A program made the translations under genes and the position numbers. DNA of 64,000 nucleotides from Gymnopilus junonius (Eukaryota > Basidiomycota > Agaricomycetes > Agaricales > Galerinaceae), in NCBI GenBank assembly GCA_015501075.1, contig JADNYJ010000073.1, positions 122,467 through 186,466 on the forward strand, read 5' to 3'. Shown one piece after another: positions 39,001 through 59,691 of this stretch. Under the pieces are notes generated by a model. It did no database searches, was not told the origin of the DNA, and worked only from the letters and a program-made list of their open reading frames with translations. The number at the start of each line of letters is the position of its first letter. Within the stretch, counting starts at the first letter, position 1.

Positions 39001-40573
39001 GTAGCTTTGAGCCGCATCCTCGCCCAAGACAAGAAGTGGTTCGATAAACCACAACATGGACCTGCAAGGCTTGTGCAGATACTCGTCAAGGATGGAGATG
39101 ATTCTAGAGACTTGATCGCTGTCGTTTGGGGCCAGTTTTGCGTGGTCATTGCCATGCTCGGTGTTGGCTTGGTTTGGGCTTTCATCAGCAGCTGGCAACT
39201 GACTTTGGCTGGGCTGGCTATCGGTCCCGTTTTCGCGATTACCATGTCTGTCCAGAGCGGGCTCGTCGCGCGCTGCGAGTCCAGGAACAAGTTGGCAAGA
39301 GAAGAGGTGGCCAAGGGGTATTATGATGTAAGCAGCTTCTTTGCTCGTTGACGTCCCTAACACTTACCATCGTCTATTTGCAGACCATCATCAATATCCG
39401 CGGCATCAGGTCCATGGCTCTCGACAATGCATTCAAGGCTGAATTCGACTCATCTGTGGACGAATCTCTCACTACCGGTGTTCGTGGAGCGTTTGTCGAG
39501 GGTTGTACTTATGGCGTCGCCAACGGCCTTATTTACCTGGCTGAAGCGCTTCTCTTCTATGTCGGAGCCATTCTTATCGCCAAGCAGATATATACCTACC
39601 TTCAAATGATTGAAGCTCTGAACTTGATTGTATTCACTGTCACAATTGGGTCGCAGCTCATGGCTTTCAGTAAGCCAGTTCAATTCAGTTCATTGCGGCT
39701 CCCATTGACATTACTCTCTTTTCCTTAGCTCAAAAAATTGCGAAAGCAGTGCAAGCTTCGAGTGACTTCGACAAGCTGGTGAAGCTCGATACATTCACAG
39801 AGGAGTCTCGCGGCACTCTTCGCCCCAAGATTGACGGGACCATCGAATTCAACAACGTCGGCTTCACCTATCCTGAACGACCTGAAGCTCCTGTCCTCAA
39901 AGACATCAACCTCACGATCTCCCCAGGCGAGTGCATCGCCATTGTCGGTGCCTCAGGTGGTGGCAAGTCTACAGTGCTCTCACTCCTCCAACGCCTCTAT
40001 GAACCCACAACTGGCTCCGTCACCATTGGCGGCATTGCCGTCAGCCTCATCGACGTCGCCCATTTACGCAACAATGTCTCCATCGTCAGCCAACAACCTC
40101 ATCTTTTTGACGCCAGTATCGCCGATAATATCCGATATGGCTTTCGTTCAATATCTGATATCGACATCCGTTATGCAGCTAAAGCTGCCAATGTCCATGA
40201 TTTCATTATGTCCCTCCCGCAAGGGTACGACACCCATGTCGGAGAAAACGCCTCCCTTCTTTCAGGTGGCCAAGCCCAAAGAATACAGATCGCTCGTTCC
40301 CTTGTTCGTCCGTCGAGAATTCTCCTCCTTGATGAATGTACCTCCTCTTTGGACAGAGAAAACCAAGTGGCTGTCTTGGATGCTATTCGCGGTGCTAAGA
40401 AGGGGAGGACGACCATCATGGTCACCCATAACCTCGAAGCCATGCTTCTTTGCGACCGGATCCTTGTCGTCCAGGACGGCCAAATAGTCGAGGAAGGTTC
40501 CTACGATGCGCTTGTGGAGCAAAAAGGCGTATTTGCAACCCTTGCCCGAGGCGGCGAATGGGTTAGCTGGTAA
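36032..40573 (+). CDS. STE6: Ste6-like full-size ABC transporter (pheromone/multidrug exporter)
   Basis: Full ABCB transporter, TMD-NBD-TMD-NBD, probably in the plasma membrane. In basidiomycetes this branch includes the Ste6 exporter of farnesylated mating pheromones. Five exons (36032-36579, 36632-37797, 37850-39327, 39384-39669, 39729-40573) give 4323 nt in frame, 1440 residues. NBD1 has Walker A GSSGSGKST, signature LSGGQKQRLS and Walker B VLILDEATSALDAT rebuilt across the 52-nt intron at 37798-37849. NBD2 has GASGGGKST, LSGGQAQRIQIARSL and ILLLDECTSSLD. The H-loops are TIVITHDLS and TIMVTHNLE. NBD1's Q-loop region is VGQQG, and NBD2's is VSQQP. A long Ser/Pro-rich linker (38150-38720) joins the halves. 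No pheromone precursor or receptor gene was seen nearby, so multidrug export remains possible. Confidence 0.85.
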
Positions 40574-40952
40574 AGGCTTTTCGTTTGTTGTATCCTTGCC
40601 AGCATGATTTTATCTTTTTATCACATTTGTTCTTTCCTTCATTCCTTCTACACACGATAGATGTGCTTTCACAGCTCTGTACAGTCATTTTATTCGACGA
40701 CTCAACTGTTATACTAGTACTACACATTCCTTTGGCATTCATGTATAATAACAATACCACACGATGTACAATAAATTTTCAACAATTCTCATAACGACTT
40801 GTAACTGAAGAAACCGGTCCTCCTCAATAATAGATCCTGTCTTTTCCATTCTTCAATAGATATCGCAGTTCTTCTACATGGAAATTCATTATGTTACATA
40901 GGTTTTACACGAATCGTTGCACCAGGGGACAAGAGCATTTCTCTGCTCCTAG
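40574..40952. other. intergenic
   Basis: 3' flanks of the convergent ABC transporter gene and family-copy A. AT-rich, no gene. Confidence 0.5.
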
Positions 40953-41962
40953 TTATTGGTGCTCGCATTGATCATTTCTAGGTTGGCCACCCTGGTATCC
41001 TGGTTGCTGAGGAAGTCGGAAATCGAAACCAGCGGTCGGAGTAAAATTGAACGGATTTTGTTGGTTGATCCCTCCACCTGACCCCGCATTGCTGGTTCTA
41101 GGGCTATAACTAGCACGAAGTTTAATAGGTTCTGCCCTCATCTCAAGTAGGCGCGTAAATGAGGCCGAATCGCCTATTGTGCTCCACACCTTCTTCCCGT
41201 CGAACTCGATCTCGGAAGTTATTTTCACAGAGCTGCGGTACTGATCAGATTTCAAATTGAAATGCTTGGTTATCATGTCTAAGCATTCCTTCAAAAGAAA
41301 TTATCATATCTTTGAAGCGAACTCGAAATGAATTTCTTACCTCATAAGAATTTGTTGTTATCGTGATAGTTGTCTCTTTGCCTCCTACTGTGCACATAAC
41401 GTAAAGTAGTTTCTTGCCTGGGAGACTGGTGGAAGGTCCTTTATTTGTTGGGATATAGGACTTTGTCTTGTTGGGAATAGTCTGGCAAGGTGGAAGTAGT
41501 GTTTCAAGGATCAGCAAAGGAAACATGCACATGGGGACCTGGCTTACACTTGGAGTATAGGGCACCTCGACGAGATTTTCTACCATAAACACCCCTACCT
41601 CATCGCCTGGATACACGACCTCCACCCAATCTGACTCATCGCCTGAAATTTGAGCCCATTGCGTTTCTCCATTTTGAGTCTTGACTGCAAGGCCGATGGC
41701 AACCTGCTTTGTGTTCGGCGGGAGGAGGGACTTGAAAACGAGCAAGGCGGCATTCATTGCTGCCTGACGAGACTCCGGGAATGGGATTACCGCACGAGGA
41801 TATACTCCTCTCGTCCAGTCTGGATGCATAGTGTTAATATCAGTTTACCTCTCCTAAAGGGATGCGTCATCACAAGGTGGACTCGAAATTAAAAAGTCAG
41901 GATTACAGACCAGACCTTGAAGGAAGAGCAGATCCCCCTGTATCGCTGCCGTCCTGGTTCAT
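40953..41962 (-). pseudogene. novel small protein family, copy A (frameshifted or re-started)
   Basis: Unrecognised family with four copies in this window. Exon 1 starts at 41962 (MNQDGSDTGGSALPS, as in copy C) and splices to RRGKLILTLCIQTG. There copy A lacks one A relative to copy C, shifting frame near 41826. An ATG at about 41829 in the second frame (MHPDWTRGVYPRAVIPFP) restores the rest: ESRQAAMNAALLVFKSLL, an Asp/Trp segment ESDWVEVVYPGDEVGVFM, and a C-terminal exon with GKKVWSTIGDS and RLLEMRAEPIKL before a Gly/Gln/Pro-rich tail. Layout is strand-strand-helix-strand-strand followed by a W..V.PGDEVGVFM strand, reminiscent of ubiquitin-like folds (inference). Translation could begin at the internal ATG, so loss of function is not certain. 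Confidence 0.6.
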
Positions 41963-42709
41963 GTGTGCCGAAGTTTACACTATATTTCGAAAGGATGAGA
42001 TTCAACGTCAAACCCTTGCTGTTCTCCAAGTTTCAATTGGCCTTACATGTCAAAGGCTATACGCCCACGCTCCTGTCCAAGCCTGACAACAGTATCAATG
42101 TCAACAATTTAGACAAGGGTGGGATACAAATATTCATCCTTCAAAACTGAAGTTGGGGCTCAAGTTTCAAGGGTTTCTAGAATAACTTAAGTACCAGAGG
42201 ATGAACACCGTCAGTATTATACGAGTAGAGCTGGACGTATAAAATAATCAATCTTACATTGCGTATGTATGTAGCAGGAAATAGCAGAAAATTTAAGTGC
42301 ACCTTTCTTATCGGGCTTTGAGTGGGGTCCAACGTGGGAGCTTGGGTATGAGGATTTACCTGGACTCAGTCAAGACTGAATACTGAGTCCCTGTATATGA
42401 AGGTCAGTTGACTCGTTTTCAATTTGGAAAACGGTTCAACAAAACTCTCGCCACTCTCGAGTGTCTTTCCCTTTCCCCTTGCTTAAGTTAACTATAGACC
42501 ATATTTCAAATACGGCCCAGGACTGCGCCTACGGCGATACGTTGCCTCTAAGATGCGGTCATAATTGTATCAATCCGTTTGGAATTTGAGTGTTGAAAGA
42601 CAGAAACCAAGTCCGATCTCTGCCTCTTTGTCACTTTATTGATTTGGTATCCTAAAGTTCGCAATGTACCTGATGTGACCTCAGTCAGCGACTTTAATAC
42701 CATTTCTTT
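41963..42709. other. intergenic
   Basis: Upstream flank of copy A and 3' region of copy B. No further gene supported. Confidence 0.4.
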
Positions 42710-43585
42710 CCGCTGCGCAGGGCTGCGCGTAGGTAAATATGGTGATCTCCGTGCTCGACAAGCCATATAGGGCCAGCCAATTTGGTATACGAACCCACAC
42801 TTTTTGTCCAGCGATGAGTCTTTCAACATCCAATCGGTTGGTAAGGCTATCGTTATCAGTTGGGTCAAAAAATGCTCGGACATCGTCCTATGTAAAATGA
42901 GATGTAATACACATAAGCTTCAGGTATTGAACAGAGTGAAATCGCGTACCTCCAAGGTTGAGAGACTGAACGCCCACATTACCGTCAAATCAGGATTGGC
43001 ATTCCAATCCTTTACGGTAACAACTTTGGTTTTTCCAAGGCAAGGCTTGGCCAGAATTACACCTCATTTATACAACAAAATATATAAAGGAAGAAAAAGG
43101 GGAAAAACCTGGGCGAGATGCCTAGAGGTGGTGGGCGCAGGCGCATATGGGAATTCGTGCACTTTCGAGCCTTTCAAGAATACCCCGGCTTCACTGCCTG
43201 GAAGCATAATATAGTCCCAGTCAAATATATTAACCCATCGTATGCCTCCGTCTATCATCTTTTCAGGTGCCCCGAGTTCAATTATTTGGTCTGGGGAGAG
43301 GTAGTCCTTGAAAGCGAGACGCGCGACGCTCATGATCTATATGTATGTAAGTCGACTGTCTGATAATGGTAGCATAACTGGTACCAGGAAGCTCACCTTA
43401 TTACTGTCTGGCATTGAGACGATAGCGCGAGGTTAATCAGTGCCTGGACTGAGGCAGAGTGTTAAGGTAATCTTTGACCCATTCGGAACAGGACTCGGAT
43501 TCGTTGGTGGCTGACGAGTACTTGGAACGCCGATGGTCGCTAACAAAGAGTCGCTGCCATCAATATTGTCTTGTATCGGTGCCAT
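42710..43585 (-). pseudogene. novel small protein family, copy B (in-frame stop)
   Basis: The ATG at 43585 gives an N-terminus with GVPSTRQPPTNPSPVPNGSK and ITLTLCLSPGTD, directly parallel to copy D. The codon matching the conserved Tyr of the YPRAVV motif is TAA (43432-43434), giving GTD*PRAIVSMPDSNK. After an intron the homology continues intact: ARLAFKDYLSPDQIIELGA, GGIRWVNIFDWDY, GSEAGVFLKGSKVHEFPYAP. The C-terminal exon has RLIAGQKVWVRIPNW and LSSTEITIFTY, ending about 42710. One nonsense change at a conserved position in an otherwise readable gene indicates recent inactivation. Confidence 0.65.
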
Positions 43586-45020
43586 ACTTAAATCGTTTTG
43601 TTTTATGCTCGTGGAATCCTTGGAAGCTGGTTTGACCAGTGAGGGAACGAAGCTGAAAGCAGCTGAGCCAAAAATAGCTCAACGGCCAAGCCTTTTGCCA
43701 CCAAAAAGTTCACGTGAAGTGTAATTACATAATCAAATATTTTCTGCGTGTCCTTTTAACTTCATTAATCATCCCGGACAACAGCAATCCTCCGCTCCCA
43801 TCTCCACCCCTTCCCCAATCAGTGCATAGCATTTAGCACTGCAGGTGGGATGCGGAAATCCGAGCATGATGAATCTTATGAGGATGGAGGGTGTTCATGT
43901 ACTCGATGCACTTGGTGGGGGCGAGTAGTGCAGTGAGAGGAAGAAATAAGGTAATGTTCATTGTTCCCCTAATGCCGACTGTTAGCGCTAATTCCTCGCA
44001 TTCTTTTCTCCAAAGCGGAAGGCAAAAGGGGGGCGCCAACCAGGAAGTACGTCACTCTGTTCAAATGTAGCTTTTCTAAGCAATATCTTGCCCCGAGTCC
44101 TTTGTCCAACTGGATCTGAAAAAGGTCCGATGAGCGGTCCGAATGAAGTAGTGTTCAGACTTTCGGAGCATTGATTCATCAGCACTCATTTGGGAGTTAT
44201 GAAAGTCAACTACTCCCCCGTAACGACAGATCTAAATCACGCTCGTTGCTCAAGTTAATGGATGGCAGTTACTTTAACAAGGTGATTAACGTCCTCCGTG
44301 AGATTGGCTTTCACGCATGCCACTAGGCGGTCGGTTTGGTCTAGCTTAAGAGAACTTAGGAAATTAATCGCATGCGTGTTTCAGAAAGGTGACAGGGTCA
44401 AGCTCCCAAATGTATTCTGATTTGGAGCAGTGCCTATTGGCAACATACACTTTGAAAGCGTGTTGGGGAGAGACTCGCGCTAGAGGTGTGGTGAGGATTG
44501 CAAGTTTGGAGTGCACCCCAGAAGTGTTGTAGCCTCATTGAAAAGCGGTGCAATATTGGTGATCATGATCACATCGATAACAAGGTCCAAGACCAAGCAA
44601 AGATCGCTGGTGTATGGACGTGCCAGCCTCATGCCTGTCAAGCTTCTATCGGCCATGATACAAGGATCCTTCAGCGTTTATTGCTTTCCCCGCATTCTAG
44701 AACATTGATCATTCACCGCTACCTCCTCTAAATTTCTTTCTTACTTCTGTTGCACCAGCCCTTTGTCCTTCTAGTAGTACTCTAAGCTCTGCAATTGTGA
44801 GTAATTGATATTGGATAGTACAAGGAAGGAAGTTTGATCGACACGATTCTTAGGAGGATGGCTCTTAGAAGAAGAGGACTCCATGGCCAAGTCAAGGTTG
44901 AATCAAAATGTTATAAACCGCTTTGAGGCTCTAACTGGGTTTTAACAAGAAACTCGCCCCAGGAAATTACATCTCAGGACATCCCAGTCATACAAAGAGT
45001 GGACAACCTCCCTTGAGCGG
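43586..45020. other. gene-free interval upstream of the GTPase block
   Basis: About 1.4 kb with no supportable gene. Short reading frames near 43833-44039 and 44498-44731 match nothing. The divergent 5' flanks of copy B and GTPase gene a lie here. Confidence 0.4.
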
Positions 45021-45136
45021 AGTGAAAGCAAAACAGATTCAGCTAAATGATTTATCTCCGATGACTTTATTATCGCGTGCGTTCGTTATTCATTTCGAAG
45101 TTTAGTTTGCTGCAGCCCAATACGTTCAACAGCGTT

Positions 45137-46110
45137 ATGGGTCCTACTGGGTCGGGCAAGAGCACAGTGAGTCCGCGTCGCAAATATTCATTTTGAATTT
45201 AGTAATTCTCGTCCTAGTTCATAAATTTAGCCACGGGAATTGAGACGGATATCGGACATGGTTTGCAGTCGCGCACTAGCGGGATGAACATCTATAAACT
45301 TGAATTTCCTGGACTCAGCAGCTTCAATTTAGTCTTCATTGATACGCCTGGCTTTGACGATACGCACCTGCCAGATATTGAAATCCTCAGACTGATCTCT
45401 GATTGGCTTTCAAAGACGTAAGTTTCCTTTGCCTATACAGGTCGAAGATGCGTAATCCAACGCTTTCAATTAGTTTCAAAAACAGAGTTCTATTGAGCGG
45501 GCTCCTTTACCTGCACCGGATATCCGACAATCGCATGGCCGGGACTCCTCTAAAGAATTTGCGCATGTTCGAGAAACTCTGCGGCGAAAAGATGCTTCAT
45601 AACGTCATTCTAACTACGACCATGTGGGAGGAAGTAGACGAAAAGACAGGGAGGATACGAGAAAATGAACTCAAAAGCAATTTTTGGCATGGGATGATAC
45701 ACAACGGGTCTACTACATGTCGATTGGAGAAGCAAACCCAGGCAGCCGCATTTAAGGTCCTAGAGCCTCTTCTTGACCGCGCAGTAGAGCGCAATTCTCT
45801 CCTTATCCAGGACGAGTTGGTCAAGATGCACATGACACTTCCCGAGACAGCCGCTGGCCAGACTCTTTCATCGGAACTGAAATTGGTTCTGAAGAAGCAA
45901 CACGACATACTACGAAAGATACGACATGAAATGCAAAATGACCATCACGGTGATCAGACGGTGGAGAATCTGAAGCGGGACTACGACGAAGTGAAGGCGA
46001 AGTTGGACTTAATTCGCAGGGGAATGCAAGAGTTAAAAATTCCGATTGGAAAACGGTTGTTGAGGACTCTAGCTTCCGCATTCAATTTCAGTCGGCCGCT
46101 TGTGAAGTAA
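45137..46110 (+). CDS. AIG1/GIMAP-like GTPase a
   Basis: P-loop GTPase of the fungal AIG1/GIMAP-like group. Exons 45137-45166, 45218-45417 and 45474-46110 give 288 residues in frame. G1 is MGPTGSGKST and G3 is FIDTPGFDDT. The G4 position reads LTTTMWEE rather than NKxD. YLHRISDNRMAG precedes it. The C-terminal half is a charged alpha-helical coiled coil (LVLKKQHDILRKIRHEMQ and following). The start used is the Met inside the P-loop. An upstream exon ending at 45076 (ISDDFIIA) would splice perfectly to the 34-nt P-loop exon but has TGA three codons before it. The true product may therefore be shortened at the N-terminus or the gene may be recently inactivated. Function unknown. Confidence 0.7.
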
Positions 46111-46340
46111 AGGCAGTTGAATATCTCTTACTTGTTTTGCCCTTACGATTATCATGGGATTTGATGGATAGCAATGGAAAGGATTTCGATTTTACGAGTG
46201 CATACCGAAGGACGAGCACGCCTTGAGCATGTCTGCATTCACTTGTCAGGGACCCGTTTCCTCAAGGGCCTGCCATTGAGCACGAGGCCCATCAAATATC
46301 AATAGAACTTGGAGTAGTGCTAAAGCCTTCTGTGAACCTC

Positions 46341-47392
46341 ATGGCTGCATTGCGTGGGGCCTTGGACGGCGAATCTAGACTGACTGGCCGCACCCTTCAG
46401 GTTATAAGGCTGCCATGAACGTTTCTTTTATTTCTTCTTGACAGTCAGACACACAGCATAATCGCAATGTTGAAAAGCAAAAACGAGAAGAAACAGACGC
46501 CTTCATTCTGTAGGATGGCTTCATCCCATAAAATTGAACATCAGCTGATTGAGGTTTAGATTTCTTGGTCCAACCGGGTCTGGGAAAAGCCATGTATGTT
46601 ATCCCTTTTCTTATATAAATTATCCTTCTTACTTCGCATCAAGATGATAGATCTTCTGTCGAGTGAAAAGGAGAAACGAGCATCTTCAGGTCTACAATCG
46701 TACACGCGTCAAGTTAGTACCGTCCGAGTCGCCGTACCAAAGGAGAATGCCAACGAAGTTGTCCAAGAAGTTGTATTAGTGGATACGCCAGGTTTCGACG
46801 ACACCTATAACACTGACATGGAGACTCTTGAGGTCATTAGCAAGTGGCTACGCAAAAGGTACGGTGTATAGTTGCCTGAGGAATTTACGTTTAAACTGAC
46901 CTCAGCAGCAGTAATAAATCCGGTTCCAAGCTCAGTGGAATCGTATACTTGCAAAGGATCACCGACAACCGACTTTCCGAGGCTGTTCACCGAAATCTTC
47001 ATATTTTCAGCGAGCTATGTGGACCAGATGCTTTCAAACATATTGTGCTCGTCACTACGATGTGGGACGAAATCCAGTCAACAGAAGAAGGTGCGGCGCG
47101 AGAGGCGGTGTTCAAGAGGACATTATGGGCCGACATGATTCAAAAGGGGGCATCAGTCACTCGGTTCCTCGGCACCAGCAATGATGCCTGGCAAGTAATC
47201 GAGAAAGTCTTGAAAGCGTCCCAGCAGGAGCAGGTCGTCCTTCACCTCCAACGCGAACTCGTCGACGGCAAAAAAAGACTGAGGGAGACCAAAGCTGCTC
47301 AGGCCATATACACTCCCCTGTCATTCATCCTCGCCCCCACGCGGGAAGAGATGCCGAACAATCTAACGAGCTCAAATCTGTTGAGGAACTAA
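46341..47392 (+). CDS. AIG1/GIMAP-like GTPase b (C-terminus frameshifted)
   Basis: Proposed exons 46341-46400, 46445-46509, 46560-46593, 46644-46858 and 46912-47392 keep frame and give 284 residues. G1 is FLGPTGSGKSH on a 34-nt exon. G3 is LVDTPGFDDT. G4 position is LVTTMWDE, preceded by YLQRITDNRLSE. The first two exons are tentative. Relative to gene c the helical region has lost about 20 nt near 47330-47345, moving translation into a frame that stops at 47392. The original frame continues as KSVEELKQDFEDNKRQAMAL with a further exon ending at 47715-47717 (MPNKSFQS). It tandemly follows gene a on the same strand. Either a truncated protein or a decaying copy. Confidence 0.6.
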
Positions 47393-47774
47393 AGCAGGAC
47401 TTCGAAGATAATAAACGTCAAGCCATGGCTTTGCTGGAAAGCTTGAAGTCGTCAAGCGGCATTCACTCAAGCATTCGCCACAAATTTGTTTTCATTATCC
47501 ATAACTTGCATTTCAAGCTGCCAAATGTTCTCTTTCTGAACAAGGTGACTCTACTTATTCTCCATTCAGGGAACGTCCTGCTTACCCACAATCGCTTTTA
47601 TTGAAGTCTAGCAATAATTCGGCCCCGGGCGAAGTCCCTGATAAAGCAGAGGTCGCAAAGACTCGGAACTCGGATGCGGAGAACAAGGAAATGCCGAACA
47701 AATCCTTTCAGTCCTGACGGTTCGAAGAGATGCGCGTAATCCGACTCATTAATCAGTAAAACAAGTAATATCTT

Positions 47775-49060
47775 TCATGGTGTAACCGTCAATCGATACA
47801 AGTCAAGAATTGTCTTAGGAATGGGCACCCGGCAAATCACGCCAACTAAGTGGGTCATATAATATTCAAGGGACGCTATGCTCGAAATATTCATTAGACA
47901 GAGAAACAAACAAACAAACGGCGCTCTCACCGCAGTGGACCCCTTGGCAAAAAAAAGGAAGATTTTGCGACCTATCGATATTTGCATGTTCTTTATCTCC
48001 CCCACAAGTTGTTCCATCTCGTTTTGAACGAGATCAAATTTCTCGTTAATTTGAGCAGCTTGCTGAGGATCGTTCTGCGTCTTGGCATGCCGGGCCAAGT
48101 CGCGGAGAATTCCACGCTGTTTACAAAGTAGGAGCTGTAGGTCGCGATAAAGGGCTTGACCGGCCTTTGTTTCTTTGAGAGTTCGTTCAAGGTCTACTAT
48201 TTCTTCTTGAAGGAGCAGTGTTACGCCTTCTTTACGATCCACAATCAGCCTATCAATAATACCACGAGCAGATTCCAGTGTGTTTTCGAACCGATCTACA
48301 GAGGCTTGACTCGCTATCAAGTCCGCCCAAAAGTTTTTCTTGAGGTCAGCCTCCCGAGACTCGCCAATCTCTTTCGTTTTAAGTTTGTCCCACATCGTTG
48401 TAACAAGGACGACGCCCCTAGCAGCCTTATTTCCGCAAAGGTCGCCAAACATTTTCAGATTGCGGTAGGGAGATCCAGCCATGCGATTGTCGGTGATGCG
48501 ATGAAGGTAAAGTATGCCAGCAAGATGGACACCTATTTTATAACTGAAAGAAATTGATCTTGACTAAACGTAACTAGAATGTCACAGATGATCACTTACG
48601 ACTCCACCAGCCAATCTGCAATAATCTGAAGGACCTCTAAGTCACTCTTAGCAGTGTCGTCAAACCCTGGAGTGTCGAGCAAGACAATGCGATCTTTATG
48701 AACTGGATGGTTTGTTATCCTGATGGCATTTGCTTCCTGCGTATGGCCTTCCAATCCAGATCCTGCTCTGCATTCTCGTTGTCCTGTTAAAATGTCTATA
48801 ATCTTTTGCCACATTAAATAAACAATGATGGCTCTGCAGAAAAACTGAAACATACCCTGCTTTTTCCGCTCCCAGTTGACCCCATAATTCTGGATGAAGA
48901 GTAATTGAGAGGATATTGTTGAGTGAGGAAAGTCGTACGCAATAACCATATCATTTTGCCTGAGCTCCTCCGATCCATTGACAGGTATGTGCAAGTAGGC
49001 ATTGGCTACGCGGTGACTCCCTGACTGAGGTCCCTGAACGACTTCCTTTGTGATATTCAT
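47775..49060 (-). CDS. AIG1/GIMAP-like GTPase c with C-terminal membrane anchor
   Basis: Exons 49060-48939, 48889-48856 (34-nt P-loop exon), 48802-48600 and 48543-47775 total 1128 nt in frame, 375 residues. G1 is AIMGSTGSGKSR, G3 is LLDTPGFDDTAK and G4 position is LVTTMWDK, preceded by YLHRITDNRMAG. A long amphipathic helical region follows (RTLKETKAGQALYRDLQLLL, QNEMEQLVGEIKN). The C-terminus is hydrophobic (APFVCLFLCLMNISSIA, then THLVGVICRVPIPKTILDL), compatible with a tail anchor as in some animal GIMAPs. An alternative GTGAGA donor within that segment would shorten the end. It converges tail to tail with gene b. Confidence 0.78.
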
Positions 49061-49144
49061 GGTTTTGTTGGGCGTATATTCTGTGAACTGGAGTATGAAT
49101 GGGAATGAAAACCGAGCACAGAAAGTTTAGCCCTCGACTTACAC

Positions 49145-49398
49145 GCGTACAACGCACGCTCGAGTGATCGACAGCCTATCCAAACTTGAAAAACCATGCT
49201 GCAGGAGATTTCAGGCGATCCTGCGGATTGATTTCGGTAAATAATGTGGTACCATAGGAGCGCATTTAGAATAATAATCACCCAAAAAACTGAGCCGGAA
49301 ACGAGGCTAGCGATCGAAGCTTCCTTCAGTGGCACGTTGTCGGCTCGTGTCCACCCTGAGGCTTTGAATTTTGCTAGAAGGCCGTCAGCTGAAGCCAT
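49145..49398 (-). CDS. short ORF with one transmembrane segment upstream of GTPase c
   Basis: The ATG at 49398 begins MASADGLLAKFKASGWTRAD, then a strongly hydrophobic stretch LVSGSVFWVIIILNALLWYH. It runs to a GTAAGT donor near 49145. It could be a 5' exon of GTPase c, but joining it to the next exon at the visible acceptor creates TAA. It may instead be a separate small membrane protein or a relic. No family recognised. Confidence 0.35.
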
Positions 49399-49476
49399 TT
49401 GACTCTAAAGATTCACCCACTAAAGATAAGTCATGGAGAGTAGCAAGCACATAAAAAGCGAGTTGAGAGCCATGAT

Positions 49477-50040
49477 TACTGCTGGGTTTTATACCTGGAT
49501 GTTTAAAACAGGGTGGTTTTTCACACTGTTTTTAACATGTTTTCAATGTTTTAAACATCGAGGGGTCCAAAACCTTCTGTGTTTTACTGTGTTAAATGAC
49601 ATCAAATTTTAGTTGATAATCAGTGAATTATAAGCATCGAGGGATGCGAATATCCTGTTTTACAAGTTTGAACTTCCAATTTCCATGAAGAACCCGCTTG
49701 CATGTGTAGAAATCAGTGAAATCGGCCCAAATTGGTGAGTACACCGCAATATCACAGAGGGTCACATCACGTGAAGATGTGTGCCTCAGCACCGAACTAC
49801 AATATATCACACTCACCAGGGTGATACTATTTTCAGATAATATAATAACAAGGTACTCGAAGAGAGAAAATTGCCCCTCAGCCAGCTTTTAGACAAATTT
49901 CTGCCCAGAAAATTAAAATTTAAAAAATATGATTATGTAAGAAAAACACTGTTTAAAACACAAGTAACGCAACACGGCCGGGAGGCCGGGAGAAAAAACA
50001 CGTTTAAAACAGTGGCCCGGAGGAAAAAAACCCAGCACTA
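49477..50040. mobile_element. 564-bp hAT-like MITE
   Basis: Terminal inverted repeats TACTGCTGGGTTTT (left) and TAGTGCTGGGTTTT (right, opposite strand) are followed inward by a shared TTTAAAACA-like word. Both sides are flanked by a perfect 8-bp duplication GCCATGAT (49469-49476 and 50041-50048). There is no transposase. Eight-base duplication with TAGTG-type ends fits the hAT superfamily. It lies between GTPase genes c and e-d. Confidence 0.85.
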
Positions 50041-50048
50041 GCCATGAT

Positions 50049-50480
50049 CTTCTGTTTAGAAGACGATTGCTGGCAATCACCTGGCTGCCTTGGTAGTAAG
50101 AGCTAAAATTAGACAGTCATGTGGCCTATCAGGCGCCAAGGCGCAGCAGGGCAAGGAACTTTTAGGCCTTTTAGGCCGGTGTCCGACCTGTATATGAAGA
50201 TGAATGTGTCGATAGACAGGTTATTACAGCTTGCTGCCTTCATAGACAGATCGGCTTCAGGTCTAAGGAACTTTGGGCAAGGTCGAAATTTCGATGATGA
50301 TAATAATGCGGAGAGACCGTCGCTGACCTTTTGAAAGAGTATATAAATATCTCATCTTTGACACATAGAGCGCAAAAAAATACTTGGAACGCCAATAATA
50401 TTCATAATTGATTTATAAGTACTGAGCATTAAAGTTATATTCAGTCCAAATCAAGTCCAAATTGAGAGATCCTTACAGAA
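50049..50480. other. intergenic
   Basis: 3' flank of the double-GTPase gene. A small direct repeat TTTTAGGCC occurs twice at about 50159-50176. No gene. Confidence 0.45.
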
Positions 50481-52371
50481 CTATATTCCGAAGAACCTAC
50501 GAATGCGACGGAATAAACCTTCTTTCTCTTTCTTTACCTTATCCAGACCTTCCCTCTTGAGAGTAGTACCCGCCCCTGTCTCCGAGACATCCTTTTTCTC
50601 CTCCACCAGCTCCCTCTGAATATCTAGAACTATCCCAGGGGAGCCGATCCGGTCAAGTATGTTTTCTACAATCCTTGACGCTGATTCACGTTTTCCATCG
50701 AACTTCTCCACAGTCGACCCCATGGCAATTAAAGGTCCCCAATATCGCTCCTTCAACTCCTTTTCACGCTCCAGACCTCTGCCTTCTGTGACCTTGCTCC
50801 ACTTTGTAGTTCCCAGGACGACATTCTTAAGAGCAGTGACCCCGCAGAAATTCTTTAACAGGCTGAGGTGAGTGTGGGCTGCAGCCGACAAACGGTCGTC
50901 GGATATATCGTGAAGGTAAATGATGCCGCCCAGGACCTCTTTGTTGATATATCTTTGAATTTGAATCAGTACAGGATATTTTCGAATAGTTACAGGCATA
51001 CATATCTTTCACGCAGGCTGCGATACGATACAAGATTTGTAAATCATCCTTATCAGTCGCATCGAAGCCTGGCGTGTCAATTAGGGCTAAGCGACAACCC
51101 CTCCCCTGTGGACGACGAGTAAAAGAGGGAACATCGACCCTCTCTATTTCATTAGTACAGGAACGCAACCCGTAACCCACTTTGACACGATCTTCTCCCA
51201 GAAGGGTGTTCACAAACTTTGAGGCTAGGTTAGGACAGTAGAAAGATGGGCATGACTTCAGTCTTACCGTGCTTTTGCCTGCACCAGTACCGCCCATGAT
51301 ACTGTAGATATAGGTTGAGCGGAACCAGTCTCATGCAAAACATTAAAACTTACAGAATCACAACGCCCTCAATAGGCTTCCCGGCTGCAACCGGCTTCAA
51401 TGCCTCTCGATAATGGCCTGAAGGTTGACTCTGTACAAATTGTTTTTCGTCGTTAACAATGAAATCGCCTGAGTCCGCGCCTACCCGACGAGCAGCCAAC
51501 AGCGCAGCCTTTGTTTCAACATACGGTTTCCCGAAATCGCACATCTCTTCTTGGATTTGGAGAGGCATGGACGTGGAAGGCCTGGAAATTGCAACATGAA
51601 GAATTTGCAAGGCAGACGACAACATGCTGTCGAAGCGCAATACCGTAGCCCCGCAAGCATACTGGGTCCAATAGTCATTTTTGAGAGCCTTCTCCCTTTT
51701 CTCTTCTTCTGTAGAAACGTGGATTGTGTCCCACATTGTCGTGACAAAGATAATCTTCTGCGCCATATTTTGACCGCACATTTCAATGAGCAACTTGAGG
51801 TTGTTCAGACGTGCTCCACTCATCCGAGTATCAGTGATAGGGTGGGTGTAGATGATTGCATGTATATGTATATGGCTTTTTCTTCTATATCTGGAGTTTA
51901 ACAATCAGTAGAGAATTTGATGAGTAAATGCGAAAGTATTACGTTTCGAAAAGCCAATTTGCGATTATGCGAAGGGTATCAAGGTCGTGTCGATCCCTGT
52001 GGTCGAAACCAGGCGTATCAATCAAAACAATCCGGTCCCTGTACTGAGCGTGGTTTTTTATCCTGAGAGCATGGATTTGAGAAGTGGGAGTTAAACGTCC
52101 ATTTTCACGCTCAAGTCGCCCGCAGATCAACTTGTCTATGAGCTTTATCAACCGATATTAGAATAGAAGGTTTGGCAAGCAACTGATAGGACAAAGGACG
52201 AACGTGGGTCTTCCCTGTCCCCGTCGGCCCTATAAGACTTGATTCTTAGTCAGTGGTGATTTACCAGTCGCCGAGAAACGCGTTCAACATAATAATGAGG
52301 TCATCCTTCTTGAATTCGTTGATCCCCTTGATTTCCTTGTAAACTAGCCCTGCATGATCTCCTGCGGACAT
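50481..52371 (-). CDS. double AIG1/GIMAP-like GTPase (two tandem G domains)
   Basis: Seven exons (52371-52289, 52237-52204, 52142-51943, 51890-51354, 51301-51268, 51216-51002, 50952-50481) sum to 1575 nt with every junction in phase, giving 524 residues. Domain 1 has LIGPTGTGKT (about residues 29-38), VLIDTPGFDH, THPITDTRMSG and FVTTMWDT. Domain 2 starts at about residue 285 with LIMGGTGAGKST, then LALIDTPGFDAT, YLHDISDDRLSA and LGTTKWSK. Both P-loops sit on 34-nt exons. The 52-nt intron at 51302-51353 (GTAAGT...CTACAG) removes an apparent stop between the domains and creates the hydrophobic strand GVVILIMGG before the second P-loop. The C-terminus is polybasic and amphipathic (LFRRIRRFFGI), suggesting membrane binding. 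The first donor (GTTGAA) is weak. Alternatively these are two adjacent genes. Confidence 0.78.
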
Positions 52372-52966
52372 TATACCGTAGATGAGGGAGGAAGAGGCTG
52401 ATTGCACGTGGAAGCGAGGAGGAAAGACTTGACGCCTACCTGCATGAAGTATGTCTGCCAATATATATCGATCCTCAAAACGTCAGGCAGGCCACGCCTT
52501 ATTTCAAACATGAGGCATTAACACTGGCTTGTGGCTGTATGTCAATCGGGTGCTCCGACTGCTGATGTCGCCTCATCGGATTACCGACCTGGCGAGGCTC
52601 TGTATTTTTCCAAGTTTACCTCTGCTGATGCAGTCACATCGCCCGTCGGCCTGGACAGAATATTTTTTCGAGAGCTATCTACAGTGGACGTGACATATGA
52701 AGGAAAGACCAATAAGCTTTACTTACCTTTTGTTTGCTCCTTCACCTGAGCCCCACTCGTGAATTAACCTGACATATTCTATGCCCATGAGGTAACTATT
52801 ATACAACTTGTAAACGGTAAACAGAAAAAAATGACGAACAAAATGACAAAGGAAAAAAAGGAATACAGTTCAAATGAAGGTAGACTAACGCGTCAGAGCA
52901 GAGTTGAAAACACCCGTCGGACCCAGAGATCAAAGAAAAGAGAAAGGCAAGTCAGGAGGATCTTGG
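52372..52966. other. intergenic
   Basis: 5' flank of the double GTPase and 3' flank of the CM1 coiled-coil gene. No gene supported. Confidence 0.45.
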
Positions 52967-55900
52967 TCATCGGACAACAGGGGAGCTAGACCCCGACCCT
53001 TTGTTGGACACCATTACGTCATTCAGTTGACTATTCCGCTTCTGCGCCAGCTCTAATTGTCTTTGGAGGCTCCTAACAAAACATCAAAACGCGAACATCA
53101 GTAAAAAAACAACGAGAAATAGAATGAAATAAAACAAGACGCACTTGACATTATTCTCCAACTCGCCCACACGTTCCTTACTCCCCTGCCTCTCCCTCTT
53201 CACCCTCTCCTCCGCCGCCTTCAGACGCGCCTCGTACTCCTTCACCCTCGCCTCCCACTTATTATCCGCCTGCGCGTTCTTCTGGTTAATGGCAGCGATC
53301 TTCTCCTCCGTCGACAAGAGCTGGTTCTGCGCGTTGTTGAGGCGGCGTTCGGCGTTGGCTGCTCGTGCGGCCAGCGCGCGGACTTCCATTGATGCGCCTT
53401 CGCCTGGGCGTTTGATGGAGGAGAGTTGGGAGGATAGTTCGACATTGGTGGCCTGTTGAATGAGAGGAATAGAATTTCAGAACAAGATGAGGATAGAAAA
53501 AAAAGGAGGTTGTCTCTCCATACCTTGACAGCCTCCAACTCGCCCTCCTTCTGGGCATACTTCTTCTTCCACGCCTGTTTCGTATCCGCATACGTCTTGA
53601 CGCTAGCCTCGAATTTATCAATGTGCTTCCATCTATTATCTAACTGCTTCTTCATGTCACCTAGCTTCTCTGCAAACTTGGCTTCGACATCCTTGCACTT
53701 CTTCTCAAAATCTGTCTGAATCTGAGAGAGTGCTTTGAGCCGCGTGATGAGGTTATCATGGAAGACAGAAAAGTTTGTGAATGGTTTCGTCTCGGCTTGA
53801 GAACCTTTTTTCTATAAACGAAGGTGAAGTGAGTTAAAATAAAATAAAAAATGATGATGGGGAATATTAATACTCACAGGCGTCTTATCCACCCCCAAGA
53901 TCTTGTCCAGATACTGGTAAATTGTCAACAGCAGCGTATTCCTCTCTGTCAGCTGATCCCTGTACTGCGCCTCCGCACCCAACAGTGCCCTCTGGTCTTT
54001 ACTCAGCCTTGCCTCCAACTCGCCCACTTTACTCTTATACACCCCCACCTCACCCTCCGCACTCCGCAAATTCCCTTGCACCACGTCCAACTTCTCACTC
54101 AAATTCAACCGCGCCTGAGTCTGCGCAGCGAGCTGAGACGCCAAATCCCGATTTTCAGAATGCAATTTGTCCAAGGCAGAATCACGATCACGGTACTTGG
54201 ATTCTCTATCGTCCAGTTCCTTGCGCAGCCTGGAGAGCTCATCCTCAACTCTCTCCAGATCTCTCTTCAGCCTATCAGCTTCCAGCTGCAGCGAGAACCT
54301 CGCAGTCGTATGGCTTTCTCCAGCCTTCTTGCTTTCTTCCTCCACCGCCTGCAACGCGCCCTGAACGTCCCTCAGATCCGCCTCCCTCTGCGCTAGAAGG
54401 CTCTGTGTGCGCGCCAGATCGGCGAGGGCACTAGTTAAAGCGGACTCTTTGGCCTCCAAAGTCCGCTTGTGGCTCCGCAGAGAGGCGTCGTGTTCCCGCT
54501 CGGCAGCGTCCAGGTCGGATTCGGCTTGTTCACGGGCGGAACGCTCACGCGAGAGTTCGCTGACGAGGTCTTCGATGTGAGATGCCAGCTCTTCTTGGCG
54601 CGAGCGATGGGCGTGGATTTCGCTGCTGCAGGCTTCGTATAGGTCGGTGGTTTGTTGGAGTTGGTCTGTTAGAGTAGCGATTTTCTGTGAAAAAAAATTT
54701 TTTTTTGGAGTTAATTAATACCAAGCAAATGAGACACTTTTTCGAGAAAAATCCCACTTACCTCCTTCAAAGCCCCTACAAGCGCCTCCAACCTCTCCCT
54801 CTCAGCCCTCTCTTCCTCATCTCTCACGTCCCGCTCCGCACTCTCCCTGAACACGCGTTCCATATCCTCCTTGATCCTATCATTCTCGTCCTCCAATTCA
54901 TAGATCTGCTCTCCGAGCTTATCGATTGTTTCTTGAAGCCTGTCAAGCTCAGCATCCTTTTGATCGGATTCGGACTCGAGGTGGGCGAGGGCCGCCTCGA
55001 ACTTGGTGTGCAGGTCGTTGGTGTTTGATTCAAGTTCGGAATGTTCAGTCTGAGGTCTTTGGATTCTGCTTCTCTTTCTGCTAGGACCTGTAGGAAATAT
55101 GAAATGAGCAATGGGTTCTCCGAAGAAAAAGAAAGAAATAGAAAAAGTAAAATAAAATGATGCCTACATCTTTCAACTCCTCCACCTGGCCCCTAGTCTC
55201 CTCCACCTCCCCTCTCCACTCCTCCTCCACAACATCCACGATCCGTTTATGTTCCTTCACCAGCTCCTCAATCTCCCTGCCCCTCTCCTCCACCTCCTCT
55301 TCCTTACTCTGGAGCTCAATCATCAGCGCTGCCATCCGATCGCGCATCGCATTCAAATCTTCCTCCACTGCTTCTCTCTCCTCCCTTTCCTCCAACACCG
55401 CCGCACGCGACTCGGACCGCGCGATGGAAGTGGAGTCCAGCCGATGTCGCAGGTCCTCGATATTCAGCCGGAGCGCGTCGACCTCGTCCATAAGGTCCTC
55501 CTTTTCCTCTCGCGCTGCGCAAGCAGGTCAGCGGTATCCGTCAACTTGGCTCCAGATCCTCATTATCGTTCTCTAGCTCTTCGAGCCGCCGGGCTATGCG
55601 TCCCCTTCTGCTTTCCGACATACTGGAGTCAGCCGATTCGTCTGCTCCACGGCGTTCGACGAGGTCCTTGAGTCGGTCGATTTCATCCATGTTGTCTTCA
55701 ATCAGTCCTTTAGCATTGTCCAGCTCATCTTCCAGCTCGGCATTGCGGGCCTCTAACTCTCTCACTACCTCTTCATCCACACCTCCATGAGCGCCCTTCC
55801 GTCTTTGCGCTCTGAGCTCCCTCAACTCCATTTCCCTCTCCTCTAGTTTTTCTTCGAGCTCCCGTTCTCTATCCCGATTGCCTCCTGAACCATTGCGTTG

Positions 55901-56644
55901 TGAGCGTTCCAATTCATGCTCAAGGGATAACACGAGTTTCTTGAGCTTCTTGATTTCCATGCCCCGCTGCTGGACCTCGATTTTGAGGTTGATGTTCTGT
56001 TTGAGGGCGGCATCGATTTGGTCCGGTGCGAGTTGGGCCAGACGTTCTTCAAGGAAATGCACCCTGAGTTTGATGTTGAAGTTTTCTTTTTTGAGATTGT
56101 CGATGTGCTATAGGAGACGTGATTGTCAGCGAATTTAATATATATTATATATACGTGAATAAGGTAAACGAACTTTTTCTTGATCTCGTAAAGTCAGAGT
56201 AACACCCTTCCCGGTGGATGCACCCCCTTTCGTCGTCCGCTTGGAAGAAAGCGAGGTAGCACCAGTAGCAGCAGTCGCAGTCGATGCCTCAGGAACATCA
56301 CCCCACTTCTTCCTGTCGCCTGCACCGGGTGTATCAAGCACATCAACACCTTCCGCATCCTCATCTTTATCATGATGGTTCAGCATGTTCAACCTGGAAG
56401 ACAAAGACGTGATCGCGTCTTCGGATTTCCGCCTCCCTCCTGGAGCGCCGAATGCTGATGCGCTGCTTGGAGAAGGGGTAGATATGGGGTCGGAAGATTG
56501 GGCCGTTGTCCGTGATGAGGTTGAGGGAACACGGAAGGCTGGTCGGCCGGGGGTGGAAAAGGATGCAAGTGATCCCAAGGAGAGTTCTGGTTGGGAGTTA
56601 TTGGACAGAGAGAGGTCAGGGTGGGTTGATAGAGCTGCAGACAT
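52967..56644 (-). CDS. CM1/centrosomin-motif coiled-coil protein (microtubule-organising, Mto1/Pcp1-like)
   Basis: Large spindle-pole/microtubule-organiser protein. The ATG at 56644 opens a Ser/Thr/Pro-rich N-terminus (MSAALSTHPDLSLSNNSQPE). The Cnn_1N (CM1) motif, which recruits gamma-tubulin complexes, straddles an intron near 56105-56180: LTLRDQEK joins HIDNLKKENFNIKLRVHFLE, then ERLAQLAPDQIDAALKQNI. The rest is almost continuous coiled coil (about 56000-53000) with heptads rich in Glu, Arg and Leu, broken by introns near 55550, 55100-55160, 54700-54760, 53820-53880, 53460-53520 and 53075-53150. It ends NDVMVSNKGSGSSSPVVR with stop 52967-52969. It lies between the GTPase block and family copies D/C but seems unrelated to them. 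Confidence 0.85.
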
Positions 56645-57186
56645 GGTGAATGAAATGGGAATGGAAGGTAAGTCGTGTGCGGCGTGACTTTGGTCTTGAA
56701 ACTGAAAAGGTAAACGTTGGATTTGAAAGAGTTCCACTAGGAATAACAGAGTTCTATGGGTCGTTCAAAGATATCTTCCTGTGAATATATATCCTCGTTC
56801 AATTCAGGTATAGCAGCAAGATGGTCCTAATACGAACAATGGAATGAATACAAAAATCTGTGTAGAAATGTCAAATGCGGCGAAATCAGTCATTTAGTCC
56901 AATAAACAGCAATATCAGAATCTGCACACACCTATTCAAGCCCACATATCCCTTCCAGAGGTCCAAAATCGCAGTCAAAAAAGGTGGCTGCTCAGCGCAG
57001 ACCGTTTCAACCTGGCGGCGGTACACAAGAGGGCAACGTGACCGTCGTGTGTTGTGATTATGACGTCACGTGCGACCATACTTTGCCGTTGAGCTATTTT
57101 TGGCTTGGTGCTCTCAACATCGCTCCCTCATCGATCAAACTAGCGCCCAAAGACAAAGAACGACGGAGAGTAGATTATCAAGCAGG
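56645..57186. other. divergent intergenic region
   Basis: Between the CM1 gene (minus) and family copy D (plus), so it should contain both promoters. It has a TGACGTCACG palindrome (CRE-like) at about 57060-57069, upstream of copy D. Confidence 0.5.
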
Positions 57187-58120
57187 ATGACGAGCCAAGA
57201 TGGAAGTAATGATATACCCGCCGTATTCAGTGTCCCCAGTACTCGACCATCAACGTCCAAATTGAAACCTAAACCGACGATAACCTTGACACTCTGCATG
57301 GACAACTCAAGTCAGGGAATTGATTACCCCCGTGCAGTCGTCGCCAAACCATTTTCAAGCAATGGATCTGTAAGAATCGTGATCCTTTTTCTAGCACAAT
57401 ATGCCCTGCCATCTAACAATTAACTTGTTCACATTACGTGCCTAGATCTTGAGAGTCATGCGCATCGCTTTCAAGGACTACCTGTCTCCAAATCAGGATA
57501 TTGAATGTGGTCTGGCACGTAAGACAACGGACGGATGTATAAGATGGGTCAAGCTCTTCGACTGGGAGAGTTCTGTAGCTGCGGATAGCAAAGTTGGCAT
57601 ATTCTTGAAAGGTTCAAATATGCATGACTTTCCTTATCTTCCACCGCCAACCGGGCGTCCAGTTAAGGCTCAGGTATCTTCATTTTTTTGTGATTATTTT
57701 TTATTCTGATTGGGACAAATAGAGTACTTTAGGCTGCGACACCTTTCCCTCCCTCAGTAAGTAAGTTGATTCATGTCGAGCATGTGTGTTCATCATCAAA
57801 TGCAGGACTCTTTGAAACACTCCTCAAGCTTTAAGGTAGGCATAACGGGCTGAAACGATTCAGAGTGCAGTATGCATTCCAACAATCTCTATACTCATCT
57901 ATCCTCTTCTAGAAACTATGTGATGAAGCTTACGGATCAGTCAAGGGTTATTGAAAATAAAAATCCTCATCTTGATGGTCAAACGGTTGGAAATGTAGTT
58001 CATTCTAGAGGGGAAAAATTCCAGGGCTTCATGAAAGATATCCCTACACTTTCTCATGTTATTGAGATTCGAAGCGAGCCTGTCGAAATACACGTTATCT
58101 ATTTATACCAGGACGAGTGA
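57187..58120 (+). CDS. novel small protein family, copy D (most intact)
   Basis: The ATG at 57187 gives MTSQDGSNDIPAVFSVPSTR and a low-complexity Pro/Ser/Lys segment, then ITLTLCMDNSSQGIDYPRAV. After an intron (GTAAGA at about 57370) come ILRVMRIAFKDYLSPNQDIE, GCIRWVKLFDWESS, SKVGIFLKGSNMHDFPYLPP. The last exon holds LDGQTVGNVVHSRGEKF and SHVIEIRSEPVEIHVIYLY, ending 58118-58120. Introns between about 57675 and 57912 are not fully resolved. Shared with copies A-C: ITLTLC, YPRAVV, a Trp-Asp stretch, GVFLKG/GVFM, PY.P, and a final IEIRSEP-type strand. It resembles no family recognised here. The fold may be ubiquitin-like (inference). Confidence 0.6.
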
Positions 58121-58513
58121 CATCGTCCGGGCATCCTGGCCAATGTTCTTGAACTTCTTTAACAACCAATATACAAATTTAGGAAATAAATGATATTGAC
58201 AAACTTGTATGATCGTTCCACATATAAAAAATGCCGTACCTAATCTGAATTATTATGCACATTAATTTCGTTCAACCACAACTTGCATGTTTTAAACTCA
58301 CCTGTACATGAAAGAAGACCCTGGTCATTGCGCGTTTTGATTGCACCTATGAATAAGCTATAGTCTAACCCTGTTTTAAAGGCATAGTATTTAAGAAGGT
58401 CTCGGTCGTTCTAATCCCACCTTCAGCCTTGGAACCCCCACTTTGATTCCCCCCTTTCCCCTCAGACCTTATTCCCACCAAAGTTCGATAAACATCAACA
58501 TCCATCATCCATA
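58121..58513. other. intergenic between copies D and C
   Basis: No gene. A TC-rich tract precedes the copy C start. Confidence 0.45.
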
Positions 58514-58795
58514 ATGAACCAAGATGGCAATGAGCCAAAAGGGCCTTATCTCCTGAACACTCCCCCACAATCAGTGTCAGATGGTATGTTATGCATTTAT
58601 CCGCACTCGAGTGAGCCGCTGGTAATCAGAACAATAACGGATTTTTGCATCTCACTGCTTTTAGGAAGAGGAAAGTTGATATTGACGCTTTGTGTCCCAA
58701 CCGGAACGAGACGAGTGTACCCTCGTGTAGTCGTTCCCTTCCCAGAAAGTCGTCAGGTCAGTAATTACACTAACTCGGCAAAAAGCCTGTCCCAC
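58514..58795 (+). pseudogene. novel small protein family, copy C (truncated by transposon)
   Basis: Exon 1 from 58514 (MNQDGNEPKGPYLLNTPPQS) splices over GTATGT...TTTTAG to GRGKLILTLCVPTGTRRVYP and VVVPFPESRQ at about 58756. In copy A the reading frame continues AAMNAALLVFK at this point. Here similarity stops abruptly and Tc1-type transposon sequence follows within about 300 bases. No exon for the Trp/Asp region or the C-terminus follows. Closest to copy A in sequence, in the opposite orientation. Confidence 0.65.
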
Positions 58796-59691
58796 AGTGA
58801 TTTCCGAACAAGATAGTGGTCAATTTCGAGTTATACTGCACGGTTTATCATCATTGTAGGTTTGAATGAAAGACTATATTATACTCTACATTGCTGAAAA
58901 TGTTGAAGCTGAATGACGCAAACTACAGGGCAAGAGACACAATTCTTTGATGTGATTGCCAAAAATGGTGTGTAATGAAAGAGGGTATCCTCTCTTGAAT
59001 CTGAGATATCTAACGGAAATATAAAGTCCTCATCTACAAATTAAAAATGAGTATTACCACCACCTGCCCTGTAAACATCAGCTACTCTCTGGGGCATGGA
59101 TTTATAAAGGTGGTTAATAAATTCAATATCAACCTTGTACCACTCCTCCTGAAGTGCGATCCACAAGTCTGTTTCTGAGTGAGGTGGAGGGTTACACTTT
59201 CTAATTTGATGGTCGAGGTAGTCCCATAAGTTTTCGATTATGTTAAGATCGGGGCTATTGGGTGGCCAGGACAGGACATCAACTGCATTTTTTTTAAACC
59301 ATGCTTGTACAATTTTTGATGTGTGCTTTGGATCATTGTCTTGCTGGAAATAAAATTGATGTAGATCCATGTGGAGATCAGAGTATGTTCCTAGCATGTC
59401 GTCCTCCAATATCTCACAGTATAATTCCTTGTTGAGGTTCCCTTCAATCCATACAATCCGCCCAACACCTTTGGAAGTGATGATTGCCCAGACTGTAACC
59501 TTTCCACCTCCATGCTTCAACTTCTTCTTTGTATAACGTGGATCCAATCTTTCCCCTGGCCTCCTCCAGCACCAATCTATTCCATCAGACCCAAAAACAT
59601 GAAAGTTAGACTCATCCGAGAAGTTCACGGCCTTCCAATTTTCCACTGTCCATTCCAGGTGTGCTTCTGCCCACTTCTTCCGCACATGTAG
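58796..59691 (-). mobile_element. Tc1/mariner element fragment (5' truncated)
   Basis: Contains the C-terminal two thirds of a Tc1-type transposase on the minus strand. The left boundary is not defined; no clear terminal inverted repeat was identified. The right end of the similarity stops exactly where a Copia-like LTR begins (59692). Confidence 0.7.
59041..59691 (-). pseudogene. Tc1/mariner DD34E transposase, N-terminus missing
   Basis: The reading frame carries the DDE triad: NFSDESNFHVFGSDG (first Asp), FYFQQDNDPKHTSK (second Asp) and SWPPNSPDLNIIENLWDYL (Glu). Exactly 34 residues separate the second Asp and the Glu, the DD34E spacing of Tc1. KVTVWAIITSKGVG corresponds to the conserved central strand. 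The stop is at 59041-59043. The helix-turn-helix DNA-binding part is absent: coding similarity begins at HVRKKWAEAHLEW, next to the LTR start, so the copy is inactive. Confidence 0.88.

Follow-up and report, generated by a model that had tools for sequence, protein, structure and literature searches.

A probable inverted duplication of a two-gene unit and the 5' end of a CM1 gene around a GTPase cluster in Gymnopilus junonius

Two protein families are found together in the DNA analysed here. The nearest likenesses of the first, referred to below as family x, are structural, namely the tandem ubiquitin-like domains of USP7 and the PB1 domains of p62, NBR1, MEKK2 and Cdc24; those of the second are the GTPases of the MMR_HSR1, AIG1/GIMAP and IRG groups. 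The window, by which we mean the whole stretch of 64,000 nucleotides that was analysed (C701:122467-186466), belongs to a 58.0 Mb assembly, in 898 contigs, of Gymnopilus junonius (Agaricales), and its right edge is the end of its contig. Within it, four copies of family x (A, B, D and C) stand in mirror order on either side of five GTPase genes (a to e). The initial annotation of this region explained the mirror as an inverted duplication of a unit of two x genes and two GTPases, and suggested that the two families work as one system. The evidence presented here favours a smaller unit. With a probability of roughly 0.78, the locus is the product of an old inverted segmental duplication that took in the 5' end of a CM1 (centrosomin motif 1) gene, the x1 gene transcribed divergently from it, and the x2 gene behind x1.

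The four copies of family x were recovered by tblastn comparison of stop-to-stop frames with the window, as the initial annotation had them. Copies A (x2 type, 40953-41962, CPB84DRAFT_1784502, P0001) and B (x1 type, 42681-43585, CPB84DRAFT_1826314, P0003, whose model begins at a later Met) lie on the minus strand; copies D (x1 type, 57187-58121, CPB84DRAFT_1784517, P0002, whose model lacks domain 2) and C (x2 type, 58514-58765) lie on the plus strand, and all three annotated genes carry the name "hypothetical protein". In an unrooted protein tree of six rows, A groups with C (99/99) and B with D (100/98), upholding the earlier pairing of the copies in opposite order and orientation; the two relatives found outside the window, a Galerina protein and a metagenome fragment, pair with each other (93/93) on the A/C side. 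Protein identity is 33/47 for A/C and 66/131 for B/D, while over the short stretch kept in C it is 20/43 for A/D and 19/48 for B/C.

The same pairing is visible in the DNA. Comparison of 40600-58766 with itself (low-complexity filter on, E up to 0.01) returned seven matches, every one of them inverted. The strongest was unexpected, joining 43769-43863 to exon 1 of the CM1 gene at 56421-56518 (81%, E 4e-18). It is followed by B/D (43145-43339/57443-57637, 68% over 198 columns, E 3e-13), the 5' flank of B at 43617-43690 with 57081-57153 (80%, E 5e-11) and A/C (41756-41858/58660-58765, 74% over 106 columns, E 7e-9). Of the remaining three, two join GTPases, a with c (E 1e-5) and b with e (E 0.007), and one is a further piece of CM1 (E 0.002). 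The detectable matches extend over ~2.3 kb of the left arm and ~2.6 kb of the right arm. Taken together, the tree, the inverted DNA repeats and the shared 5' flank make an ancestral inverted duplication of a two-gene x unit a well-supported reading of the sequence.

The coiled-coil CM1 gene itself occupies 53084-56764 on the minus strand (outer bounds of its long frames), and the exon following exon 1 matches the Cnn_1N profile with an E value of 1.4e-22. One low-complexity repeat family, in direct orientation, lies within this gene. The counterpart of exon 1 in the left arm is a relic on the plus strand at 43769-44059, beside copy B, which in its full extent is an inverted copy of 56195-56518 at 61-65% identity with gaps and 81% in the best stretch. 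As protein, 97 residues of it are still recognisable, stops included (E 1.3e-4), and its alignment with the CM1 gene on a second contig, C860, shows 86% identity in 99 columns. A short dispersed repeat of 52 bases (43693-43744), 87% identical to sequences on contigs C404 and C126, separates the B 5' flank from the relic.

The presence of this relic beside B indicates that the 5' end of CM1 was part of the duplicated unit and is not to be discounted. The initial annotation had subtracted CM1 from the right arm, and its shared centre for the x copies and the GTPases at 48.4-48.5 kb depended on that subtraction. With CM1 left in place, the midpoints of the x, flank and CM1 pairs fall at 50127-50391, that is, within 0.27 kb, as against 47.0-49.4 kb for all six possible inverted GTPase pairings; since any such pairing centres within the same 2.4 kb, the argument from a shared centre has no power. 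The insertion of CM1 into the right arm at a later time was rejected in view of the relic. The colinearity of the matches also bears on a history of separate duplications, tandem and dispersed, in which the x copies came to stand in mirror order by chance. The overlaps are short and the arms differ by insertions and deletions, as such a history would allow; nevertheless, four kinds of inverted match (A/C, B/D, 5' flank and CM1 exon 1) are colinear, in opposite orientation and with nearly coincident midpoints, and we regard the chance mirror as extremely unlikely. Judged from sequence, the duplicated unit is x2-x1-5' end of CM1, with the CM1 5' end as its inner edge. The right-hand set, CM1-D-C, would be the likely source because CM1 is whole only there, and the left-hand set, CM1 fragment-B-A, would be the copy, which ends abruptly within exon 1 of CM1, perhaps through repair with template switching.

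Between the arms lie five GTPase domains, as previously noted, in the order and orientation a+ b+ c- d- e-: a at 45137-46110 (start set by eye at the P-loop), b at 46568-47392 (start approximate, by eye), c at 47775-48893 and e at 51350-52235 (upper ends approximate, by eye), and d at 50481-51330. These genes have the P-loop GxTGxGKS/T and the motif DTPGF in common with the MMR_HSR1 family (50S ribosome-binding GTPase superfamily), and spliced a and c, the two covered by the spliced scan, pass its profile cut-off of 21.9 bits with 24.5 and 24.4 bits. Against AIG1, in contrast, GTPase a reaches 13.4 bits with a cut-off of 27 (E 0.048) and AIG1 is not listed for c. The best PDB sequence for GTPase a is an interferon-inducible GTPase, with an E value of 0.01. 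At what we take to be the NKxD position these proteins have TTMWD/E or TTKWS, in which they differ from the MMR_HSR1, IRG and AIG1/GIMAP GTPases. A literature search on such GTPases in mushrooms, as on family x and on G. junonius itself, gave no lead.

The GTPase family is far larger than the block between the arms. One search of the genome gave at least 48 exon matches, haplotype copies included, with 12 on C701 and the others scattered over 14 more contigs. The window holds five of the 12; the other seven, at 99-122.5 kb, form a further array to its left (C701:97000-122466) that includes the gene most similar to c. A tree of two exons was built from 26 sequences after those of <90 residues and near-duplicates were dropped, the loci being taken from 30/48 matches (an earlier tree was limited to the last exon, in 23 sequences). 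GTPase d falls in a separate clade (98/95). A single clade (95/96), not resolved internally, unites the C701:99 kb gene with GTPases b, c and e; within it c joins the 99 kb gene at 62/32, and a lies near this clade without support. Of the groupings submitted to the AU test (seven p values, uncorrected for multiple testing, with e a long branch), a+e (p 0.018), a+b+c+e (0.006), all five (2.4e-7), d+e (0.004) and a+d (0.025) were rejected, but c+e (0.40) and b+c (0.29) were not.

These results bear on the possibility that a single inverted duplication of x2-x1-GTPase-GTPase, followed by insertion of CM1 into the right arm, produced two families inherited as one system. The strand pattern, plus for a and b and minus for c, d and e, fits such an event, as do the common clade of b, c and e with the 99 kb gene and the survival of b+c in the AU test. 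On the other hand, the proposed pair a/e and the clade of all five are rejected and d belongs elsewhere, so that two GTPases per side are not recovered and the five G domains do not make one group; c is 61% identical to the 99 kb gene (C701:99215-99838) and 43% to b; and the inverted DNA matches (E up to 0.01) pair a with c and b with e, not a with e and b with c as had been proposed. The relic beside B further indicates that CM1 adjoined x before the duplication. We consider this history very improbable, and a GTPase block forming part of the mirror was rejected on the tree and the AU tests. The sequence evidence speaks against a, d and e as members of the duplicated unit; b and c may or may not have been carried along. 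What stands of the initial proposal is thus the two-gene x unit, and the GTPases between the arms would represent a separate, much larger family with its own gains and losses.

Contig C860 looks like the other haplotype, its identity with the window over CM1 being 98%. It holds the 5' part of c (94%) and then lacks window positions 50457-51839, a stretch that includes d and the greater part of e's last exon; tblastn detected no GTPase d on C860:1-6400. If C860 is allelic, as the identity suggests, GTPase content seems to differ between haplotypes here, and within a single individual some GTPases may be present on one haplotype and absent from the other. Comparison of C860:1-6400 with window 48647-52343 also showed other sequence nearby, including a transposase-like frame (read by eye), and the AT-rich stretch at 49477-50041, with recurring tttaaaac-like words (by eye), is missing from C860.

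All four x copies appear damaged in the assembled sequence. Copy A has a frameshift in the first hairpin of domain 1, which the public gene model steps round, and copy B an in-frame stop at 43433-43435, in the same hairpin. Copy D has no recognisable first part of domain 2 but a likely remnant of that domain at 57911-58121, the end of which matches P0001 with an E value of 0.001 in a comparison with five proteins. Copy C stops at the start of a repeat with a DDE_3 (Tc1/mariner-type) frame (58766-59691, minus strand), which truncates it and has more copies on contigs C87, C28, C723 and C204. At the other end of the mirror, copy A adjoins an ABC transporter gene (ABC_membrane, ABC_tran) at 37837-40573. 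For exon 2 of B/D, dN/dS is 0.24 (0.12-0.49; 76 codons; 148/1000 bootstraps without a dN/dS were dropped), suggesting that purifying selection acted on the x1 pair during much of the time since duplication.

Searches of the genome with A, D and the Galerina protein found x only at the present locus, at the sensitivity used; a large family x in this genome was accordingly set aside, the single other row (with A) being a weak one on C41 (E 0.88). When 5.77 billion proteins were searched, using as queries A alone, the A-B-D-C alignment and an alignment led by the Galerina protein, two relatives beyond those of the window came out: a Galerina marginata protein, P0004 (E 5.2e-30), and a metagenome fragment of 102 residues, P0005 (E 3.1e-15). 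This type of search relies on shared 5-residue words, and the alignment with the Galerina lead missed its own query row P0001, so that recall is incomplete and remoter relatives may exist. No Pfam family was matched by P0001-P0004 at E up to 10, and PDB sequence searches with x gave best E values of 0.83 and 0.55, none below 0.5. Family x thus looks taxonomically narrow, being confined to Gymnopilus and Galerina in these searches and having no Pfam family.

The x protein is predicted to consist of two beta-grasp domains in tandem, the second PB1-like. The best whole-model Foldseek match is USP7 (E 7.5e-6), with which x would have the tandem arrangement of beta-grasp domains in common; however, the TM-score is just 0.33 with an rmsd of 11.8, and x could not accommodate a protease domain. 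Unlike PB1 domains, x has no match in Pfam and none among PDB sequences that is credible, and the PB1 rows of the structure comparison are 5-19% identical to it. The acidic OPCA motif, which we take to mark PB1 type A, was absent from the x alignments read by eye. In A, B and P0004 a lysine, possibly comparable to the strand-1 lysine of type B, is found close to where strand 1 of domain 2 begins, in an uncertain register. A small adaptor that joins partner proteins via its beta-grasp domains is the likeliest working mode for such a protein, although we put it forward tentatively.

Several observations weigh against the duplication as reconstructed here, or against the protein model that accompanies it. 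Copy C is comparable over only 47-50 aligned residues. The lesions in A and B could partly be assembly errors, and no second-haplotype contig was found for the searched parts 43000-46300 and 57000-59040. The age of the duplication is uncertain because dS, at 1.6, is near saturation. The pair of c with the 99 kb gene, which competes with b+c, is itself weakly supported (62/32), and since b+c is not rejected the duplication may still have included one GTPase. As for the fold, the model (four rows) is of modest quality, with a pLDDT of 68.5 and a pTM of 0.50; the remaining four reach 54-57, and the model of the window's own A is lower at 56.8 (pTM 0.34).

The proposal that x and the GTPases form one system rests on a single locus and is not supported: nothing in the sequences analysed ties the families functionally, and the 14 other contigs with GTPase matches gave no x in those searches. 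The two might still cooperate, for example with the x beta-grasp domains binding the GTPases as effectors, selection keeping the neighbourhood despite separate duplication; we judge this very unlikely. A more specific version, in which x would be a lineage-restricted tandem PB1-like/ubiquitin-like adaptor plugging into a fast-turning-over mushroom GTPase array within a self/non-self or defence locus, its gene content differing between the haplotypes of one individual, is very unlikely, and a two-family immune-like system is likewise not supported. A literature search on inverted duplications in fungi gave no lead.

With an old inverted duplication of x2-x1-5' end of CM1 as its origin, the mirror pattern would for the most part reflect commonplace genome history in the surroundings of a gene family about which little is known. 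The locus illustrates how a small inverted duplication, landing across a gene cluster unrelated to it, can give rise to a striking mirror, and how a gene fragment concealed in "intergenic" DNA can mark the true unit's inner edge. It also brings forward a narrow gene family, without a Pfam family and predicted to have beta-grasp domains in tandem, together with a group of GTPases whose content seemingly differs between haplotypes.
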